A stretch of DNA of 64,000 nt from Sinomicrobium weinanense (GTDB taxonomy: Bacteria; Bacteroidota; Bacteroidia; Flavobacteriales; Flavobacteriaceae): contig NZ_JAHKRR010000001.1 in the NCBI RefSeq assembly GCF_018863395.1, positions 930,001 through 994,000 on the forward strand, given 5' to 3'. Below the pieces are notes generated by a model, which searched no databases, was not told the origin of the DNA, and saw only the letters and a program-made list of their open reading frames with translations. Positions within the stretch are counted from its first letter, which is position 1, and each line of letters starts with the position of its first letter. The translations under genes and the position numbers were made by a program. Below, in pieces: positions 14,060 through 22,426 of this stretch.

Positions 14060-14210
14060 ACCCTTAAAAGTTTTTTCTTCGATAAAATCTGCCTTTCATC
14101 CGTTTTTTTTCTATCTGCCTCAAAACCAGCTTACTTTTGTGGCGTTCTCTAAAGACAGTCTCTGTGCTACTTATATTTTTTTAACTGCGATGCCACCCCT
14201 TATTACTATT

Positions 14211-14624
14211 ATGCCTAAAAGAGTAAAACTGGATTTTGGAATTCTCGAGTTTCACGAAAACTTTGTCATTAGTGAATTGGACGAAGGAATCCACTTTGTC
14301 TCAGAACAGAACAAGGTCCTGATCTCTGCCTGCCTTAAACATTTTAAAGACAAGCCTTTCGGATATATTTCCAACCGGATATATTCCTATTCTGTGGACC
14401 CTTTTATTTACGTGGAAACAGAGCATATAGAAAATTTTGTTGCCATGGCCGTAGTGGTAAGTACTTCCGCACAAAAACTCAGTTCCAGGGTAGAGAAAAT
14501 GTTCTGTAAACGGCCTTTTAGATATTTCTACAACCTGGAAGAGGCCCGGGCATGGATCGAAAACACAATAAACACAGGGATAGCATCCGGGCAACACCCC
14601 TTTACTAGGCCCCCCGGAATTTAA
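14211..14624 (+). CDS. small conserved protein of unknown function, possible STAS/SpoIIAA-like fold
   Basis: I do not recognise this gene with certainty. From the ATG at 14211 (MPKRVKLDFG) it encodes 137 residues; a longer version from 14139 adds a hydrophobic, atypical N-terminus. The predicted pattern is alternating short strands and helices (FGILEFHENFVISEL, VLISACLKHFKDKPFGYISNR, VAMAVVVSTSA, RYFYNLEEARAWIENT), which resembles cytoplasmic STAS-like proteins of flavobacteria. There is no signal peptide and no membrane segment. It stands alone between two repeat-filled gaps. The STAS suggestion is an inference from layout only. Confidence 0.6.
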   Translation: MPKRVKLDFGILEFHENFVISELDEGIHFVSEQNKVLISACLKHFKDKPFGYISNRIYSYSVDPFIYVETEHIENFVAMAVVVSTSAQKLSSRVEKMFCKRPFRYFYNLEEARAWIENTINTGIASGQHPFTRPPGI

Positions 14625-14648
14625 GGAAGTTAGAGCCCAAAATCCATA

Positions 14649-14763
14649 AGATTGACGGAAGATTGAATCCCGATCGCTATCGGGAGATTGATCTTGAATA
14701 TTTTCAATCTCGTTCAATCTTCCCGCGTAGCGGGACCAATCTCCTATCAATCTCCTTCAATCT
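14649..14763. repeat. AGATTG/CAATCT inverted array with about 10.5-bp spacing
   Basis: AGATTG starts at 14649, 14660 and 14685; its complement CAATCT starts at 14705, 14715, 14737, 14748 and 14758. Most spacings are 10, 11 or 22 bp. Small hairpins CCCGAT-CGCT-ATCGGG and CCCGC-GTA-GCGGG lie inside each arm. It fills the gap after the unknown protein and just before the hutH stop codon, and may act as the hutH terminator. Confidence 0.65.
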
Positions 14764-14770
14764 TTTAACC

Positions 14771-16282
14771 TTAATCCACCAGCATATCTTCACTGATCTC
14801 AAAATTCTTCAGAAAATCTGTTGCCGCCATAATATCATTGTGCAGCACCCTGTCCTGACTGATAAACGGGACCTCCTTCCGGAAGGCCTCTAAAAATTCC
14901 CTGAGAAAAGGTGATGTTTGTGCCGGTTCGCGGAACACCAGCGCCTGGGAAGCATTAATTAGCTCAATAGCCAGTATACGTTCTACATTGTCCAGCAGCC
15001 TGAGGCATTTGGTCGCGGCATTGGCTCCCATGCTCACATGGTCTTCCTGCCCATTAGACGACACTATGCTGTCTATACTCGCCGGAGTGGCCAGTTGTTT
15101 GTTCTGGCTTACAATACTTGCTGCGGTATATTGCGGTATCATCAGCCCCGAATTAAGCCCGGGGTCGTTGACGAGAAATGCAGGTAATTCCCGTAACCCG
15201 GAAACAAGCTGGTAGGTACGCCGCTCTGAAATATTTCCCAGTTCGGCCATTGCAATACCCAGATAATCCAGGGCCAGGGCGAGGGTTTGCCCGTGAAAAT
15301 TCCCTCCTGAAATGATCTTGTCCTCTTCCAGGAAGATATTCGGGTTGTCCGTAACGGAATTGATCTCCGTTTTGAAAGTCTTGCGTACAAAATTCAACGT
15401 ATCTTTCGTAGCCCCGTGTACCTGGGGCATACAGCGGAATGAGTAAGGATCCTGTACGTGTTTCTTTTCGCGGACAATAAGCTCGCTTCCCTCGAGGAAA
15501 GCGGAAATGCGTTCGGCGGTCTTGACCTGTCCCCGGTGCGGCCTTATAAGGTGAATGGAAGCATCGAAAGGTTCTATTCTACCGTCATAGGCTTCCAGGG
15601 AAATGCTCCCGATCAGGTCTGCCAGGTAAGAGAGTTTATAAGCCCGGATAACCATGGATATCCCGTAAGCACTCATAAACTGGGTGCCGTTCAACAGGGC
15701 AAGCCCTTCCTTGGACTGTAATTGTATCGGCTGCCAGCCCATCTCCTGTAACACCTTTTCTGAAGGTAATATTTCTCCTTTGTAATACACCTCTCCTTTA
15801 CCGATAAGGGGCAGGGAAAGATGCGCCAGGGGAGCCAGGTCGCCCGAAGCCCCCAGGGAGCCCTGCGTATAGACCACAGGTATAATATCATTATTATAAA
15901 AATCAATAAGCCGCTGTGCGGTAGACAACTGTGCCCCGCTATGCCCGTATGAAAGCGATTGCACCTTGAGGAGCAACATCAGTTTTACAATATCGGCCGG
16001 GGCCTTCTCCCCTGTTCCGCAGGCATGTGAGGCTACCAGGTTTTCCTGGAGTTTGTTCAGGTGTTCCCCCGATATTTTTATGTTATAGAGAGAGCCAAAA
16101 CCAGTGTTGATCCCGTATACAGGCTCCTTTTGTTTTTTCAGTTTTTCATCCAGGTACGTCCTGCACTTTTTGATGTTTAGTTTGGCCTCTTCAGAAAGGG
16201 CTATTTCCTTGTTATTTTTAACAATATCCAGTACCTGTTCTAAATTCAGTACGTCCGTACTTATATAATATGTGTCTCGCAT
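14771..16282 (-). CDS. hutH: histidine ammonia-lyase
   Basis: Non-oxidative deamination of L-histidine to urocanate, first step of histidine breakdown, in the cytosol. The chosen start (MRDTYYISTDVL) gives 503 residues, the family size; an in-frame ATG 66 bp upstream adds an unlikely extension. The MIO cofactor triad Ala145-Ser146-Gly147 lies in GSLGASGDLAPLAHLS. YGINTGFGSL and SQDRVLHNDIMAA are family motifs. NLVASHACG carries the His that distinguishes histidine lyases from Phe/Tyr lyases. No other hut genes are adjacent, so histidine breakdown must be encoded elsewhere or the gene has a stand-alone role. Aminomutase activity is less likely but not excluded. Confidence 0.88.
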   Translation of the reverse strand: MRDTYYISTDVLNLEQVLDIVKNNKEIALSEEAKLNIKKCRTYLDEKLKKQKEPVYGINTGFGSLYNIKISGEHLNKLQENLVASHACGTGEKAPADIVKLMLLLKVQSLSYGHSGAQLSTAQRLIDFYNNDIIPVVYTQGSLGASGDLAPLAHLSLPLIGKGEVYYKGEILPSEKVLQEMGWQPIQLQSKEGLALLNGTQFMSAYGISMVIRAYKLSYLADLIGSISLEAYDGRIEPFDASIHLIRPHRGQVKTAERISAFLEGSELIVREKKHVQDPYSFRCMPQVHGATKDTLNFVRKTFKTEINSVTDNPNIFLEEDKIISGGNFHGQTLALALDYLGIAMAELGNISERRTYQLVSGLRELPAFLVNDPGLNSGLMIPQYTAASIVSQNKQLATPASIDSIVSSNGQEDHVSMGANAATKCLRLLDNVERILAIELINASQALVFREPAQTSPFLREFLEAFRKEVPFISQDRVLHNDIMAATDFLKNFEISEDMLVD

Positions 16283-16511
16283 GCTATCAGAAGTTGAAAA
16301 TCGGTCAAAATTCCATATTCGACCCAAAAAATCCAAGTTTATTGCCAATTATTTATCAGCATTTCGAAAAAATAAGAATCCCTCATTTTGAAAAACGGTA
16401 CGGCTGGTTATATTGCCCTTTGCGAACTTGTGTACAAGAGCTTTAAAATAATAGGGCCAATGGAATTTTCAACGGGAAAAACGGGAGGTGTTTCCTTCAT
16501 CGGCCATTGTT

Positions 16512-18074
16512 TTAACCTTTTTCCGGATCTTCTTCTTCCTTTTCCGGAGGAAGGTGTTCCTCCCTGGCAAAAAGGTCCATAAAAGCATTTCCTATATGGT
16601 CGATGATCCCGGTTGCGGTGAGTGCTTCATAGCCCATACCGGAAACGGCAATGTCTCCGGCTTTTCCGTGCAGGTAAACCCCGAACACGGCTGCGTATAA
16701 AGCAGTATACCCCTGGCTTATCAGCCCGGTGATCATACCTGTAAGGACATCGCCGCTGCCGCCGGTGGCCATTCCGGGATTCCCGGTGCTGTTTACGTAT
16801 ATCCGGTCTTTGTGTATGGTTGTGGTATGAGCACCTTTGATCACCAGGATCAAATTGTATTTCCCGGCAAATTGCCTGCTTTTTTCCAGTTTTTCAAAAT
16901 CGTCTTTCCAGCTCCCTATCAATCTTTCCAGTTCTTTGGGGTGAGGGGTCAGTACGGATTCCAGGGGCAGTAATTCCAGCAGGTCGTGGTTTTCAGAAAG
17001 TATGTTAAGTGCATCCGCATCGACGACCAATGGAGATGTGTTTTTCCGAAGGAAGGCCTTGAAAGCATCGACGGTGGCCCGGTGCCTGCCCAACCCTACT
17101 CCTATACCGATCACGGTAGGTTTCAGGTCGAACGCTATGGTAGAAATATGGTCTTCATTGACGTCAGTGAGTACCATGCCCTCCGGCAATGCGGTTTGCA
17201 ATACCGGATATCCGCATTTGGGAAGGTAGGTGGTCAACAGTCCCGCTCCAACCGACAGACAGGCTTTTCCGGCCAGGTAAACGGCCCCGACCTTTCCGTA
17301 GCTTCCGCCAATTACTAAAGCATGGCCGTACGTCCCTTTATGGGAAAATTTCTTCCTCGGGATATAAAGAGACAAGGCTTCCTGTTTACCTATAAGAACG
17401 GCTTCCGGTTCCACACTTTGCAGATAAGCCGCATCCAGGCCGATGTCTACAGCCTCCCAGGAATCGGTATACACGCCTGATCCCGGAAGAAAGAAAGCCA
17501 GTTTGGGCGACTGGAAGGTCAGGGTGTGATTGGCCTGTATAACCGGTGCATCCGTTTTGGGAGCAACATGCATGGAAAGTCCCGAAGGCATGTCTACGGA
17601 AAGTACAAAAGCGCCGGATGCGTTGATATGATCGATGAGCTTGCCCACCCAACCCGAAGCCGGGCGGTTGAGCCCTACCCCGAATATGGCATCGACTATG
17701 ATGTCCTCGGGTTTTAGTTGGGGTAGCTCCTCCCCTTTTTCTCCCCCGAAATGTTCGGGCCAGTGTTTCAGGCTTTTTATCCGGTCCAGGTTCAGCAGGA
17801 AATCTTTGGATCGCTTTTCGCTGAAATCTACAATATAGCTCTTCACCTTATAACCGCTTTCCAGTAAAAGCCTGGCAATAACAAGGCCGTCCCCTCCGTT
17901 ATTCCCGATACCGCAAAAAACATGGATCAGCACCGGGTTGCCCTGCAACCTTCCGTCGAGCCATTCAAAAACTCTTGTTCCGGCCCGCTCCATCAATGCA
18001 TCACTGGTGATATTCTGGTTTAAAATTGTCAATCTGTCAGCTTCGCGTATCTGTTCCAGGGAAAAAATATTCAT
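16512..18074 (-). CDS. nnr: bifunctional NAD(P)HX epimerase / ADP- or ATP-dependent dehydratase
   Basis: Repairs hydrated NAD(P)H: the N-terminal YjeF_N epimerase interconverts R- and S-NADHX, and the C-terminal ribokinase-like domain dehydrates the S form. The N-terminal half has the nucleotide-binding signature GIGNNGGDGLVIARLL, the C-terminal half has VVDADALNILSE, LTPHPKELERLIG, and the dehydratase motif GNPGMATGGSGDVLTGMI. The length of 520 residues suits the fused bacterial form. It is divergent from the thr operon with a 304-bp gap carrying the thr promoter and leader. Its own promoter is not clear. Confidence 0.94.
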   Translation of the reverse strand: MNIFSLEQIREADRLTILNQNITSDALMERAGTRVFEWLDGRLQGNPVLIHVFCGIGNNGGDGLVIARLLLESGYKVKSYIVDFSEKRSKDFLLNLDRIKSLKHWPEHFGGEKGEELPQLKPEDIIVDAIFGVGLNRPASGWVGKLIDHINASGAFVLSVDMPSGLSMHVAPKTDAPVIQANHTLTFQSPKLAFFLPGSGVYTDSWEAVDIGLDAAYLQSVEPEAVLIGKQEALSLYIPRKKFSHKGTYGHALVIGGSYGKVGAVYLAGKACLSVGAGLLTTYLPKCGYPVLQTALPEGMVLTDVNEDHISTIAFDLKPTVIGIGVGLGRHRATVDAFKAFLRKNTSPLVVDADALNILSENHDLLELLPLESVLTPHPKELERLIGSWKDDFEKLEKSRQFAGKYNLILVIKGAHTTTIHKDRIYVNSTGNPGMATGGSGDVLTGMITGLISQGYTALYAAVFGVYLHGKAGDIAVSGMGYEALTATGIIDHIGNAFMDLFAREEHLPPEKEEEDPEKG

Positions 18075-18126
18075 TGTGCATTAATTTTTGGCTAATGATT
18101 AATATTTCGCAAAAGTTAAAAAAATG

Positions 18127-18157
18127 TTTGCTTCTTTTGGTAAAAGTACTACTTTTG
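18127..18157 (+). promoter_or_regulatory. near-consensus primary-sigma promoter of the thr operon
   Basis: TTTG at 18127-18130, a 19-bp spacer, then TACTTTTG at 18150-18157. This matches the Bacteroidota consensus TTTG-N19-TAnnTTTG in every fixed base. Transcription would start near 18164, about 15 nt before the leader ORF. Confidence 0.78.
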
Positions 18158-18178
18158 GATTGTAAATAATTCAATTCA

Positions 18179-18295
18179 GTGTCAAAGAATATACACATAT
18201 CATCAATCACTCCCACAGCGTGCGCTTCTGCATCTGAGTGTATTTCTTCCGGCATTATTATTACAATTACCGGTATTACCCCATTCGGGGTATAA
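18179..18295 (+). CDS. thrL: putative thr operon leader peptide (attenuator ORF)
   Basis: A 38-codon ORF with GTG start, too short for normal gene finding, sits between the thr promoter and thrA. Nine of its residues are Ile and five are Thr, densely packed near the end as GIIITITGIT, then PFGV and TAA. Thr and Ile are the end products controlling threonine synthesis, and E. coli ThrL has the same kind of Thr/Ile run. No in-frame ATG exists; a stop at 18167 fixes the upstream limit. A 6-bp stem TACCCC-ATTC-GGGGTA overlaps its last codons, and GTTTGAA-CCAAA-TTCAAAC lies beyond. I see no classical terminator hairpin plus U-run before thrA, so the mechanism is open. The gene symbol is by analogy. 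Confidence 0.62.
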   Translation: MSKNIHISSITPTACASASECISSGIIITITGITPFGV

Positions 18296-18378
18296 TTTCA
18301 TTTCATATCATCCGTCCTTTTTTTGTTTGAACCAAATTCAAACCACTAAAACTATATATAAATTCAACTTTTTCACAC

Positions 18379-20826
18379 ATGAAAGTTTTAAAATTCGGAG
18401 GATCCTCCGTAGCCGATGCCAAACGTATAAAATTGGTAAAAAAAATTGTAGAAAACAATATCAAAGACGATAAACAGATCATTGTTGTCTCTGCTTTTGG
18501 CGGTGTTACGGACCTTTTGCTGGAAGCTGCCCACCAGGCTTCCCTGCGTGACGAAAACTATACCGGGGTCATGGAAAAAATAGAAAAACGCCACCTCGAA
18601 ACCATGCAGGAGCTGCTGCCCATTGCTTCCCAGAGCAAGGCGATCAGTGCCGTAAAAAGGGAACTGAACACCCTGGAAACCCTGCTCGAAGGGGCTTTTC
18701 TTATCGGTGAGACCACCCCGAAACTGCTGGACAGGATACTGGGCTATGGCGAACTCCTTTCGTCCTACATCGTCAGCGAATTTTTTACCTCCGAAGGCAT
18801 GGACTGTATCCACAAAGACAGCAGGGCACTTATCAAGACCGATGAAAACTACGGAAAAGCCGCAGTCGATTTTAAAATGACCAACCGTCTTTGCGAAACC
18901 TATTTTGGGACCGTTACCTATAAAACCATCGTAGTCCCCGGTTTTGCGGCTTCTTCTCCCGAAGGCAATTCCACCACCCTGGGAAGGGGCGGATCGGACT
19001 ATACCGCGGCGATCATGGCCGGGGCCGTAAACGCTTCCGTACTGGAAATATGGACCGATGTAAGCGGTATGTACACCGCCAATCCAAAACTGGTAAAACA
19101 GGCCTTTGCCATTCCTGATATATCCTATGAAGAGGCTATGGAGCTCTCTCATTTCGGAGCCAAAGTCCTTTATCCGCCCACCATTCAACCTGTGCTTTCC
19201 AAAGGAATACCGATACACATCAAAAACACCTTCCAGCCGGAAGAACAGGGAACCCGCATACGGAAAAACACCAACGGTTCTGCCCGTCCGGTAAGAGGCA
19301 TAAGCCATATAGACAATATGGCACTCCTTTCTCTCGAAGGAAGCGGCATGGTAGGGATCTCCGGTATATCCAAGCGGTTTTTCGAGGTGCTTTCACTCCA
19401 CAATATCAATGTAGCCCTTATTACCCAGGCCTCTTCCGAACACTCTATCTGTATAGGTATTGCCGAAAGCGATATGCAAAAAGCAGAAAAAGCCGTTAAT
19501 GAGGCCTTTGAATATGAAATAGCGACTAAAAAGATCAACCCGGTCGTTGTTGAAGACAATTTGGCCATCATAGCATTGGTCGGCGATAATATGAAAAGCC
19601 ACCAGGGGCTCAGCGGTAAGATGTTCAGCTCCCTGGGGCAAAACAACGTCAATATAAGAGCTATTGCCCAGGGAGCCTCGGAAAGGAACATCTCAGCGGT
19701 GATCGACAGGGCCGATGTTAAGAAAGCCCTGAACACCCTGCACGAACACTTTTTCGAAGAGCATGTAAAACAGCTCAATATCTTCGTTATGGGTGCCGGG
19801 AATGTAGGTGAAAAATTCCTGAACCAGATCCGCCAGCAAAAGAAATACCTGAAGGAAAAGCTACGGCTTAACGTCCGCGTAGTGGCCCTGTCCAACTCCC
19901 GGAAAATGTATTTTGACGATGGCGGTATAGACCTTAAGAACTGGAAGGACTTTCTCGATAAGGGGGAACCGGCCGACATCGATAAATTCTTTGAAAAAGT
20001 AAAGGCCCTGAACCTGCGGAACAGTATATTTGTGGATAATACGGCCAATGCCGTAGTAGCGGGCACCTATGCGGGTTACCTCAAAAACAGTATCGCCGTG
20101 GTCACCTGTAACAAAATAGCCTGTTCTTCCGAACTGGAACACTATTCGCAATTAAAGGATCTTTCGAGGCAATACAACGCGCCTTTCCTTTTCGAGACCA
20201 ATGTAGGTGCAGGACTGCCTGTTATCGACACCCTGAAAAACCTGATCGCCTCCGGGGACAGGGTCAACAAGATACAGGCCGTATTATCCGGAAGCCTCAA
20301 TTTTGTCTTTAACAATTTTGACGACAAAAGTTCTTTCGAAGGTGTGGTAAAACAGGCCCAGGCAGAAGGATATACAGAACCCGATCCGAAGATCGACCTC
20401 AGTGGTGTCGACGTGATGCGGAAAATACTTATCCTGGCCAGGGAAAGCGGCCATGAACTGGAGATCGACGATATAGAGAACGAGTCCTTCCTGCCGCAGG
20501 AAAGCCTGGACACCACCACGGTCGATGACTTTTACGCATCCCTTGTCAAACACAGCTCCCATTTTGAAAACATATATGCCGAAGCAGCCAAAAAAGGATG
20601 CAGGCTCAAATATGTGGCGCAGTTTGAGGACGGCAAGGCCAAAGTGGGTCTTCAGCATATCCCGAAGGACCACCCGTTCTACAACCTGGAAGGAAAAGAC
20701 AATATTGTACTTTTCTTTACAGAAAGGTATAACGAACAGCCACTGCTGGTAAAAGGTGCGGGTGCAGGTGCGGATGTCACCGCATCCGGTATTTTTGCAG
20801 ATATTATCCGGGCAGGCAATTTTTAA
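18379..20826 (+). CDS. thrA: bifunctional aspartate kinase / homoserine dehydrogenase
   Basis: Catalyses the first and third steps from aspartate to homoserine. Residues 1-300 are the aspartokinase domain (MKVLKFGGSSVADAKRI, GRGGSDYTAAIMAGA), about 310-465 two ACT-type regulatory segments, and 470-815 homoserine dehydrogenase with the NAD(P) motif VMGAGNVGEKFL and TNVGAGLPVIDTL. The 815 residues match ThrA/MetL fusions. The ACT segments are the expected site of feedback control by threonine. It is first in the operon thrA-thrB-ATPase-thrC, transcribed from the promoter at 18127 through a leader ORF. The ATG at 18379 is the only plausible start. Confidence 0.96.
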   Translation: MKVLKFGGSSVADAKRIKLVKKIVENNIKDDKQIIVVSAFGGVTDLLLEAAHQASLRDENYTGVMEKIEKRHLETMQELLPIASQSKAISAVKRELNTLETLLEGAFLIGETTPKLLDRILGYGELLSSYIVSEFFTSEGMDCIHKDSRALIKTDENYGKAAVDFKMTNRLCETYFGTVTYKTIVVPGFAASSPEGNSTTLGRGGSDYTAAIMAGAVNASVLEIWTDVSGMYTANPKLVKQAFAIPDISYEEAMELSHFGAKVLYPPTIQPVLSKGIPIHIKNTFQPEEQGTRIRKNTNGSARPVRGISHIDNMALLSLEGSGMVGISGISKRFFEVLSLHNINVALITQASSEHSICIGIAESDMQKAEKAVNEAFEYEIATKKINPVVVEDNLAIIALVGDNMKSHQGLSGKMFSSLGQNNVNIRAIAQGASERNISAVIDRADVKKALNTLHEHFFEEHVKQLNIFVMGAGNVGEKFLNQIRQQKKYLKEKLRLNVRVVALSNSRKMYFDDGGIDLKNWKDFLDKGEPADIDKFFEKVKALNLRNSIFVDNTANAVVAGTYAGYLKNSIAVVTCNKIACSSELEHYSQLKDLSRQYNAPFLFETNVGAGLPVIDTLKNLIASGDRVNKIQAVLSGSLNFVFNNFDDKSSFEGVVKQAQAEGYTEPDPKIDLSGVDVMRKILILARESGHELEIDDIENESFLPQESLDTTTVDDFYASLVKHSSHFENIYAEAAKKGCRLKYVAQFEDGKAKVGLQHIPKDHPFYNLEGKDNIVLFFTERYNEQPLLVKGAGAGADVTASGIFADIIRAGNF

Positions 20827-20923: not shown

Positions 20924-21847
20924 ATGAACGAAATACGAATTTTCTGCCCCGCTACCATTGCCAATGTCTCCTGTGGATTTGACGTGCTCGGACTCTGCCT
21001 GGACAAGGTGGGAGACGAAATGGTGATCCGCAAAACGGGGAACAACCAGGTGACCATTTCCAAAATCGAGGGCCAGGACCTGCCTCTCGACACCGAAAAA
21101 AATGTGGCCGGGGTATCTGCTTTGGCACTGCTGGACCACCTGGGAAGCACCCAGGGGTTTGACATTGAGATCTACAAGAAGATCAAACCCGGCAGCGGTA
21201 TCGGCAGCAGTGCCGCAAGTGCGGCCGGAGCAGTATTTGGCATCAATAAGTTGCTTGGGGAACCTTTGTCTGCCAGGGAACTTATTCCTTTTGCCATGGA
21301 AGGCGAAAAACTGGCCAGCGGATCATGGCACGCCGACAATGTAGCCCCTGCCCTTCTCGGCGGGTTTTCCCTGGTGCGAAGCTATGAACCGCTCGATGTG
21401 ATAAAACTGCATACTCCCGGGGAGCTCTATGCTTCCATCATCCATCCGCAGATAGAGGTAAAAACGGCAGACGCCCGTTCCGTGCTTAAGCATTCCGTTC
21501 CCCTGAAAAAAGCGATACAGCAATGGGGAAATGTGGGAGGATTGATAAGCGGACTATATACCGAAGATTACGATCTCATTTCAAGGTCGCTTCACGACGG
21601 GATCATCGAACCCCTGAGAAGCCTGCTTATTCCCAGGTTCTCTCTGGTTAAGGGGGCAGCGCTCGAAGCAGGTGCCCTGGGCAGTGGAATTTCCGGCTCA
21701 GGTCCATCTATATTCGCATTGAGCCGGGGCGAAGATACAGCTCAGAAGGTGGCAGAGGCCATGGCCGGGGGTTATGCAGGTTCCGGGGTGGATTTTGATA
21801 TCCATATTTCCGGTATAAACCCGGATGGTATGCGGGTGCTGCAATAA
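20924..21847 (+). CDS. thrB: homoserine kinase
   Basis: Phosphorylates homoserine to O-phosphohomoserine, the substrate of ThrC. This is a GHMP-family kinase of 307 residues with the ATP-binding loop KPGSGIGSSAASAAGAVFG around residue 90 and the C-terminal GSGISGSGPSIFAL. Second gene of the thr operon, 97 bp after thrA with a palindromic repeat in the gap, and 18 bp before the following ATPase gene. Confidence 0.95.
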   Translation: MNEIRIFCPATIANVSCGFDVLGLCLDKVGDEMVIRKTGNNQVTISKIEGQDLPLDTEKNVAGVSALALLDHLGSTQGFDIEIYKKIKPGSGIGSSAASAAGAVFGINKLLGEPLSARELIPFAMEGEKLASGSWHADNVAPALLGGFSLVRSYEPLDVIKLHTPGELYASIIHPQIEVKTADARSVLKHSVPLKKAIQQWGNVGGLISGLYTEDYDLISRSLHDGIIEPLRSLLIPRFSLVKGAALEAGALGSGISGSGPSIFALSRGEDTAQKVAEAMAGGYAGSGVDFDIHISGINPDGMRVLQ

Positions 21848-21865
21848 ACTAAAAACACAATTATA

Positions 21866-22426
21866 ATGCCCATTAACCAGCAAAAACACAGGTTTTACGT
21901 TATGACAGGTGGCCCTGGTGTGGGTAAGACCACTACCCTGCTGGCACTGCAAAAGCACGGGTATGATCACGTGCCCGAAGTGGCCAGGCAGGTTATCCGG
22001 GAACAAATGGCACAGGATGGAGACGCCCTGCCGTGGAAAAACACGGAAAAATACAGGGACCTTATGCTAAGCCGATCGGTTGATTCCTATCTTTCAGCTC
22101 TGGAGAAGCAAGCAGAAAAGCCCTTGTTTTTCGATCGCGGCATCCCGGACACCCTGGCTTATTCCTATCTCGAAGATATTCCCGTTTCCGATGAACTGAA
22201 AGAAGGATTGCAGGATTATCGCTACCGCTCCGAAGTGTTCATATTTCCTCCGTGGGAAGAGATCTATAAAACTGACGGGGAAAGAAAACAAGACTTCGAA
22301 GAAGCCGTAAGAACCTATGAAGTAATGGCGGAAGCCTATACCCGGCAAGGATACGAACTCCTGGTAGTCCCGAAAACCGATGTGGAAGAACGCGTAAAAT
22401 TTATATTGAACCATCTCAACACTTAG
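21866..22426 (+). CDS. AAA_28-type P-loop NTPase inside the thr operon
   Basis: A 186-residue single-domain P-loop protein: Walker A GGPGVGKTT (Lys21), Walker B-like LFFDRGIPDTLAYS, and an arginine-containing lid region DYRYRSEVFIFPPWEEIY. It resembles small kinase-like predicted ATPases of the AAA_28 group (NadR-like P-loop fold), whose substrates are mostly unknown. It lies 18 bp after thrB and 100 bp before thrC on the same strand, so it is likely co-transcribed. A role as a small-molecule kinase linked to amino acid supply is possible, but nothing in the sequence names the substrate. No membrane segment or signal peptide. Confidence 0.82.
   Translation: MPINQQKHRFYVMTGGPGVGKTTTLLALQKHGYDHVPEVARQVIREQMAQDGDALPWKNTEKYRDLMLSRSVDSYLSALEKQAEKPLFFDRGIPDTLAYSYLEDIPVSDELKEGLQDYRYRSEVFIFPPWEEIYKTDGERKQDFEEAVRTYEVMAEAYTRQGYELLVVPKTDVEERVKFILNHLNT

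Follow-up and report, generated by a model that had tools for sequence, protein, structure and literature searches.

Candidate attenuation of the thr operon by a threonine/isoleucine leader ORF that ends on a conserved hairpin in Sinomicrobium and related Flavobacteriaceae

A short open reading frame (ORF) rich in isoleucine and threonine codons lies just upstream of thrA in Sinomicrobium weinanense, which raises the question of whether, and by what device, the thr operon senses these amino acids. The window, that is, the whole stretch of DNA that was analysed, comprises 64,000 nucleotides of contig NZ_JAHKRR010000001.1. Downstream of thrA lie thrB (20924-21847), a gene encoding an AAA_28 ATPase (21866-22426) and thrC (to 23831). 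The P-loop ATPase gene (Pfam E 4.9e-46) is sandwiched by thrB and thrC. The closest named thrA is that of S. pectinilyticum, which is 88% identical to the thrA of the window. Elsewhere in the same genome, loci L092 and L093 hold another paralogue of the aspartate kinase/homoserine dehydrogenase, with 35% identity and an open frame of 1140 aa, and a match to aspartate kinase at 36%. The genus was sampled with six genomes, the source genome among them.

A preliminary description of this DNA had proposed a promoter with TTTG-N19-TACTTTTG spacing, a GTG-initiated ORF of 38 codons with nine Ile and five Thr, and two stems, one in the last codons and one further downstream. Each of these features was recovered (Table 1). 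TTTG occupies 18127-18130 and, 19 nt on, TACTTTTG occupies 18150-18157, which is the sole plus-strand match to TAnnTTTG within 14139-20025; none other lies between the promoter and thrA. The promoter block could be aligned across the genus and was largely invariant. TAnnTTTG also occurred 60-190 nt 5' of the ORF-end hairpin, designated hp2, in 139 of 152 leaders. The accessible text of a study of a flavobacterium gives TAnnTTTG as the promoter consensus (PMC9723704).

Table 1 Features of the thrA leader of S. weinanense, in window coordinates.
Feature	Position	Strand	Remarks
Promoter, TTTG (-33) N19 TACTTTTG (-7)	18127..18157	+	Bacteroidota sigma-A type; start site predicted
Leader ORF, GTG start, 38 codons, MSKNIHISSITPTACASASECISSGIIITITGITPFGV	18179..18295	+	stop TAA 18293-18295
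P1, helix of the start-codon region with the segment just before the run	18179..18255	+	
Putative regulatory codon run, ATT ATT ATT ACA ATT ACC GGT ATT ACC (IIITITGIT)	18254..18280	+	
hp2, TACCCC-ATTC-GGGGTA, ORF-end hairpin	18277..18292	+	
G-poor stretch, leader stop to thrA	18296..18378	+	possible Rho-loading region
Unpaired motif, CATATCATCC	18304..18313	+	13 nt after the G-run
hp3, GTTTGAA-CCAAA-TTCAAAC	18325..18343	+	
thrA, bifunctional aspartate kinase/homoserine dehydrogenase I	18379..20826	+	

The upstream regions of thrA were gathered from 79 usable named loci, from the source genome and one more genome of the genus, from 30 order-level genomes and from 76 family-level genomes. This gave 187 regions, of which 181 were distinct after six duplicates were taken out; the named, family and order sets overlap slightly. 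The family-level sample covered 76 of 168 matching genomes (about every second row, roughly one per genus), and the order-level sample covered 30 of the 39 matches outside the source genome, the nine omitted being one genus of 0.6-Mb genomes. Outside the family, 18 of 19 matching genomes of the class were sampled and one partial match was omitted. One locus without a 5' end (L069) was left out, and two whose sequence stops elsewhere than at a start codon (L193 and L208) were retained.

We searched the last 260 nt of each region for a hairpin pattern, ACCC-N(3-6)-GGG(G)T, with codons disregarded. The pattern was present in 150 of the 181 distinct regions and absent from 31. By set, duplicates included, it was found in 72/79 named, 63/76 family-level and 18/30 order-level regions, as against 0.47% of dinucleotide shuffles and 1/180 regions upstream of other long ORFs at the same loci (regions overlapping the leader excluded). 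In the 11 codons before the ACC of the hairpin, the mean number of Thr and Ile codons over the 150 leaders was 5.89 in frame, compared to 0.51 and 0.33 in the other two frames. At least four such codons stood in the frame of the hairpin in 139/150 leaders, and in the other frames in 0/150. The conserved Ile/Thr short ORF for which a search of relatives had been advised is therefore borne out by the three sets, with Thr and Ile confined to one frame.

Several observations bear on whether the leader ORF is translated. When the six Sinomicrobium sequences were aligned, the start codon was GTG in four and ATG in two, and gaps were 3 or 6 nt long within the ORF and 1 or 2 nt long outside it. Among 139 leaders with a predicted start site, the in-frame start was ATG in 126, GTG in 8 and TTG in 2, with none in 3. 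The Ile and Thr content of the S. weinanense ORF itself gave a binomial p of 1.8e-4 against an assumed 13% Ile+Thr, and its peptide had no Pfam match at E 0.01. Judging from the aligned start, the in-ORF gap lengths and the frame-specific codons, the leader ORF looks translated.

The anatomy of the leader was examined in a set of 152 of the 181 regions, selected by a score that counts Thr/Ile codons and hairpin flanks and is hence biased by its choice; the scored sequences are related rather than independent, so that the p-values given here are optimistic. At codon positions 2-7 before the hairpin, Thr/Ile frequency was 0.89, 0.76, 0.55, 0.65, 0.67 and 0.66, and at positions 8-10 it was 0.44, 0.36 and 0.37, still above background. 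Thr/Ile content exceeded that of mononucleotide shuffles at p < 0.05 in 131/152 leaders. Codon usage within the run was mixed (ATT 285, ACA 221, ACT 211, ACC 83, ACG 42, ATC 41, ATA 15), and since codon choice varies, the amino acids are what is kept.

The run leads directly into hp2, which closes on the last Thr codon, so that in S. weinanense the final ACC of the run sits within the hairpin. The stop codon began in the 5' part or loop of hp2 in 34/152 leaders and 0-5 nt after the G-run in 111/152, together 145/152. The outer A and T of the stem were present in 149/152 C-run/G-run hairpins chosen without regard to flanks; a flank-favouring score (A before, G or T after the stem) gave A:T in 151/152, partly by selection. 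Because the sequence of hp2 hardly varies, compensatory change is scarce there. When the stem was extended outward in the 152 leaders, position -2 paired slightly above shuffles (81/152, p = 0.0065), and positions -3 and -4 did not pair above shuffles. For hp2, pairing as such is best indicated by two class members of one other family (L225 and L228), in which an ACGGG/CCCGT stem of inverted polarity carries the stop codon in its loop. The end of the peptide differs among leaders (TPFGV, TPLG, TLWG, TL, TP) while the hairpin stays constant, which suggests that selection acts on the RNA and not on the end of the peptide.

Is hp2 specific to thrA? In the source genome the pattern search found one copy and a reversed control pattern five, so the pattern alone is not rare; hp2 together with the CATAT motif described below occurred once, at thrA. 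A covariance model (R1), built from 48 leaders, some of them from the searched genomes, was run on 40 genomes. All 11 matches with E up to 0.0105 lay just before thrA, and weaker matches mixed thrA sites with others. One weaker match away from thrA was examined (L255, E 0.02) and lay at an unrelated gene, which we take to resemble hemW.

The preliminary description had stated that no standard terminator precedes thrA. This held in that a terminator scan of the window called, before thrA, only the ORF-end hairpin terminator-like, yet the TACCCC/GGGGTA stem that had been passed over turned out to be the conserved core. In the wider set, a lenient terminator test with loops up to 16 was passed by 9/152 thr leaders, seven of them via the ORF-end hairpin only; the other two had a hairpin inside the ORF (L025) and another terminator-like site (L178). 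With loops up to 8, 8/152 thr leaders passed; this version found the terminator of L216 and missed the hairpin of L229, which has a weak T-tract. The same test recovered the control leaders of the genus, ilv in 6/6 (loops up to 16) and his in 5/5 (loops up to 8). On these sequences, a classic U-tract intrinsic terminator apart from hp2 is missing in nearly all leaders examined.

Native duplex energies were compared with species-swapped ones, and no convincing pairing for an antiterminator switch was found. Pairing did not exceed swapped controls for hp2 with the downstream region (p = 0.98), the run with the downstream region (p = 0.75) or the leadB segment with the downstream region (p = 0.85), and three cuts of leadB against hp2 gave p = 0.96, 0.07 and 0.20. 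For the CATAT-type motif, no pairing partner was found within the leader, with pairing no better than swapped against the leader (p = 0.27), the right arm of hp2 (p = 0.96) and the right side of hp3 (p = 0.99); its pairing with the left arm of hp2 gave p = 0.03 against shuffles and 0.52 against swaps. The start region gave two weak, uncorrected signals, one for pairing to hp2 (p = 0.022) and one for pairing to the downstream region (p = 0.035), and these lend a switch a small residual probability. By eye, AAAGG or CCAATGG ahead of the run seemed complementary to CCCTTT; the pairing test gave this candidate no support. The earlier suggestion that the mechanism may differ from the classic stem switch is thus supported on two counts, namely that a terminator-like site other than hp2 occurs in 2/152 thr leaders while the his, ilv and trp leaders of the genus keep their U-tracts, and that hp2 and the motif are without convincing alternative pairing.

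Three other elements of the leader stood out. Within the ORF, the P1 helix had native pairing that beat species-swapped pairing in two tests (p = 1.4e-6 and 4.2e-5), and its region folded better than shuffles (p = 9e-18); the start region also paired with the Thr/Ile run above swapped controls (p = 2.9e-4). Behind hp2, 117/150 leaders carried [CT]ATAT at a distance of 6-13 nt from the G-run (range searched, 6-17 nt), with a shuffled expectation of 28.7. Further on, hp3 was compensated in a genus member (GTCTGAA/TTCAGAC); its native pairing was better than swapped (p = 6e-5) and its region folded better than shuffles (p = 6e-21). As a separate observation, CATATCATC occurs twice, 108 nt apart, at 18196-18204 in the early leader ORF and at 18304-18312 in the motif after hp2, and in several relatives ACATATC-like words were seen by eye close to where the leader starts.

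The stretch immediately after hp2 was less structured than its own shuffles. Between the leader stop and thrA, base content was C 17.5% and G 6.9% in 140 leaders, compared to C 17.1% and G 14.7% in 76 control upstream regions. The C-G difference between leaders and controls was significant (p = 1e-17); C itself was not enriched. A G-poor downstream region and an unstructured spacer would suit Rho, whose gene is present in the genome, G-poverty of a 5' UTR being weak evidence.

From these features we infer a regulatory role for the leader, and we are confident that the thr operon is under Thr/Ile leader attenuation that uses hp2. Under a shortage of Thr or Ile, a ribosome stalled among the final codons would keep hp2 open with its leading edge, and RNA polymerase would continue into thrA. 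With both amino acids in good supply, the ribosome would reach the stop codon, which lies within hp2 or next to it, and depart; hp2 would close during a hold of the polymerase close to the CATAT motif. Transcription would then stop with no U-tract terminator involved, the most likely agent being Rho, which would act on the G-poor RNA ahead of thrA. The distance from the ribosomal A-site to the front edge of the ribosome is about 12 nt, so that a ribosome halted within the final four or five codons would keep hp2 from folding and one halted further up would not. The highest density of Thr/Ile codons falls where a ribosome, once stalled, would extend as far as hp2, which was counted in favor of masking. 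To the complete scheme, a Thr/Ile-responsive attenuator without a separate terminator in which a stalled ribosome masks hp2 and Rho ends transcription, we give about an even chance; this is below our confidence in its core because the sign given to hp2 and the part given to Rho both lower it.

The sign could be the opposite, with hp2 as an ON element, although we consider this unlikely. In plenty, a ribosome close behind the polymerase would keep hp2 open; a lagging ribosome would let hp2 fold at the RNA exit channel just when the polymerase arrives at CATAT, and the folded hairpin would make the polymerase pass a downstream block, be it Rho or a pause. This would account for Thr/Ile codons remaining above background beyond codon 7, where a stalled ribosome would leave hp2 free. 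A stall at the first hungry codon, at least six codons before hp2, would likewise leave the hairpin free and speaks for this sign. It also fits a narrow hp2-to-motif spacing (6-13 nt) when the stop codon shifts between the loop and +5, and a stem whose near invariance (A/T ends in 149/152) is more than a simple stem requires. However, under this sign a leader that is not translated would be ON, a terminator further downstream was not seen, and an RNA antiterminator would be required, of which we know of none in this phylum.

The alternative that hp2 is a weak intrinsic terminator, blocked directly by the stalled ribosome with no need of other factors, is in our view improbable, though it may apply in some clades. 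The scan calls hp2 terminator-like, at least five T occur in the next 8 nt in 61/152 leaders, and Polaribacter-type leaders such as L036 have GGGGTTTTTC; moreover, the codon runs of actinobacterial ilv leaders overlap terminator hairpins, according to the available text of PMC1262725. Nevertheless, in the first 10 nt past hp2 T runs reach no more than 1-2 nt in 105/152 leaders, hp2 passes the lenient terminator test in only 7/152, and a U-tract alone would leave the conservation of CATAT unexplained. It is very improbable that the ACCCC-GGGGT palindrome, with its nearly invariant arms downstream of the promoter, is instead the DNA operator of a repressor acting independently of translation, since neither a fixed phase with the Thr/Ile frame nor a stop codon on the palindrome or within 5 nt of it in 145/152 leaders would be expected. 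There is scarcely any prospect that the leader ORF only boosts thrA translation by reinitiation without amino-acid sensing: reinitiation has been proposed for leader genes close to a gene (PMC4833913, text available in part), but hp2 lies 67-169 nt from thrA (5th-95th percentile), far above the roughly 10-16 bp discussed there, and the codon bias is specific to the products of the pathway.

To return to attenuation through hp2, the thrA leaders of some relatives carry a different device. Among 22 leaders displayed, four (L140, L141, L142 and L216) had a Thr/Ile run followed by a U-tract terminator, in agreement with the detector. The 18 class members outside the family were classified by eye: four had the CCC/GGG form (L223, L224, L235 and L236), two the inverted stem, two a Thr/Ile run followed by a U-tract terminator (L226 and L231, the detector agreeing) and one (L229) a GC-rich hairpin after its Thr/Ile run, the T-tract being weak, and nine had no visible leader. 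That the thr operon carries either device in relatives supports a shared task. L140, L141, L142, L216, L226, L231 and L229 appear to represent lineages in which the two thrA devices have been exchanged.

To judge from the regions sampled, the hairpin with its CATAT motif is conserved through the family and part of the order, and it was seen in some other members of the class. We tentatively suggest that it defines a distinct attenuator class, marked by a sequence-fixed hairpin on the last sense codons and stop and by CATAT at a narrow spacing. In such a class the hairpin would act on RNA polymerase (by pause and Rho) under the control of the ribosome, with no U-tract terminator or competing helix. 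Equally tentative is the suggestion that this class would be widespread in the thr operons of Flavobacteriaceae and present elsewhere in the class Bacteroidia. The thr leaders seem to do without a textbook terminator/antiterminator switch, whereas the his, ilv and trp leaders of the genus keep a terminator, and this contrast offers a natural way into the coupling of ribosome, RNA polymerase and Rho in Bacteroidota. The element had no Rfam 15 match in the sequences searched, and it may lend itself to annotation and to use as a Thr/Ile sensor.

The leader resembles ThrL of the E. coli thr operon attenuator in that the same operon is preceded by a short ORF with Thr and Ile codons and both amino acids would be sensed. 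It is unlike ThrL in that nearly all leaders are without a separate U-tract terminator hairpin and without convincing antiterminator pairing, and in that the run here abuts the hairpin on which the ORF ends. The Rho-dependent upstream ORF regulators TnaC and SpeFL share a stall near the ORF end without an intrinsic terminator; they sense a free ligand, and a part for Rho is here only presumed.

No gathering match to Rfam 15, Bacteroid-trp included, was found in the window or in the loci of seven relatives, and permissive matches over 18050-18450 had E values of at least 0.58 and scores far below gathering. Bacteroid-trp RNA (RF01692) is listed in PMC2864571, as its available part indicates. 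This RNA and the his and ilv leaders resemble the thr leaders in placing codon runs for the end product before biosynthetic operons in the same genomes; the leaders of the genus differ from the thr leaders in having a GC-rich hairpin followed by a U-tract. His leaders with His runs (HHHH) and a U-tract terminator were found at 5/5 genus loci with upstream sequence (L103 in the source genome), and ilv leaders combining Ile/Val runs with a long stem and its U-tract at 6/6 genus loci (L107 in the source genome). Trp leaders with WWW and the same kind of terminator were seen in the three genus loci displayed (L237, L238 and L242); the trp leader of the source genome scored 45.3 bits against a 49-bit cut-off.

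Closer in arrangement are actinobacterial leaders. In the accessible portion of PMC1262725, the codon run of the ilvB leader overlaps the terminator hairpin, and mycobacterial cys leaders have their codons near the stop, without a terminator, for which Rho was suggested. Both groups thus have their codon run where the ORF ends, either overlapping a hairpin or with no obvious terminator, and in both a role for Rho has been proposed, but the actinobacterial leaders belong to another phylum and to other operons, and the near-invariant hairpin with a spaced CATAT is found here. In the literature searched, parts of which were available only in excerpt, no report of a thrA leader of this group was found, and subscription papers may describe one. 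For F. psychrophilum, the available text of PMC9723704, which deals with structured 5' regions, describes 'strong clues' that leader peptides attenuate amino-acid operons, the elements named being those of pheA and hisG; thrA is absent from its main text and may be in Table S7. Leader-peptide attenuation in flavobacteria is therefore in print in general terms, and the thr leaders add a variant to it.
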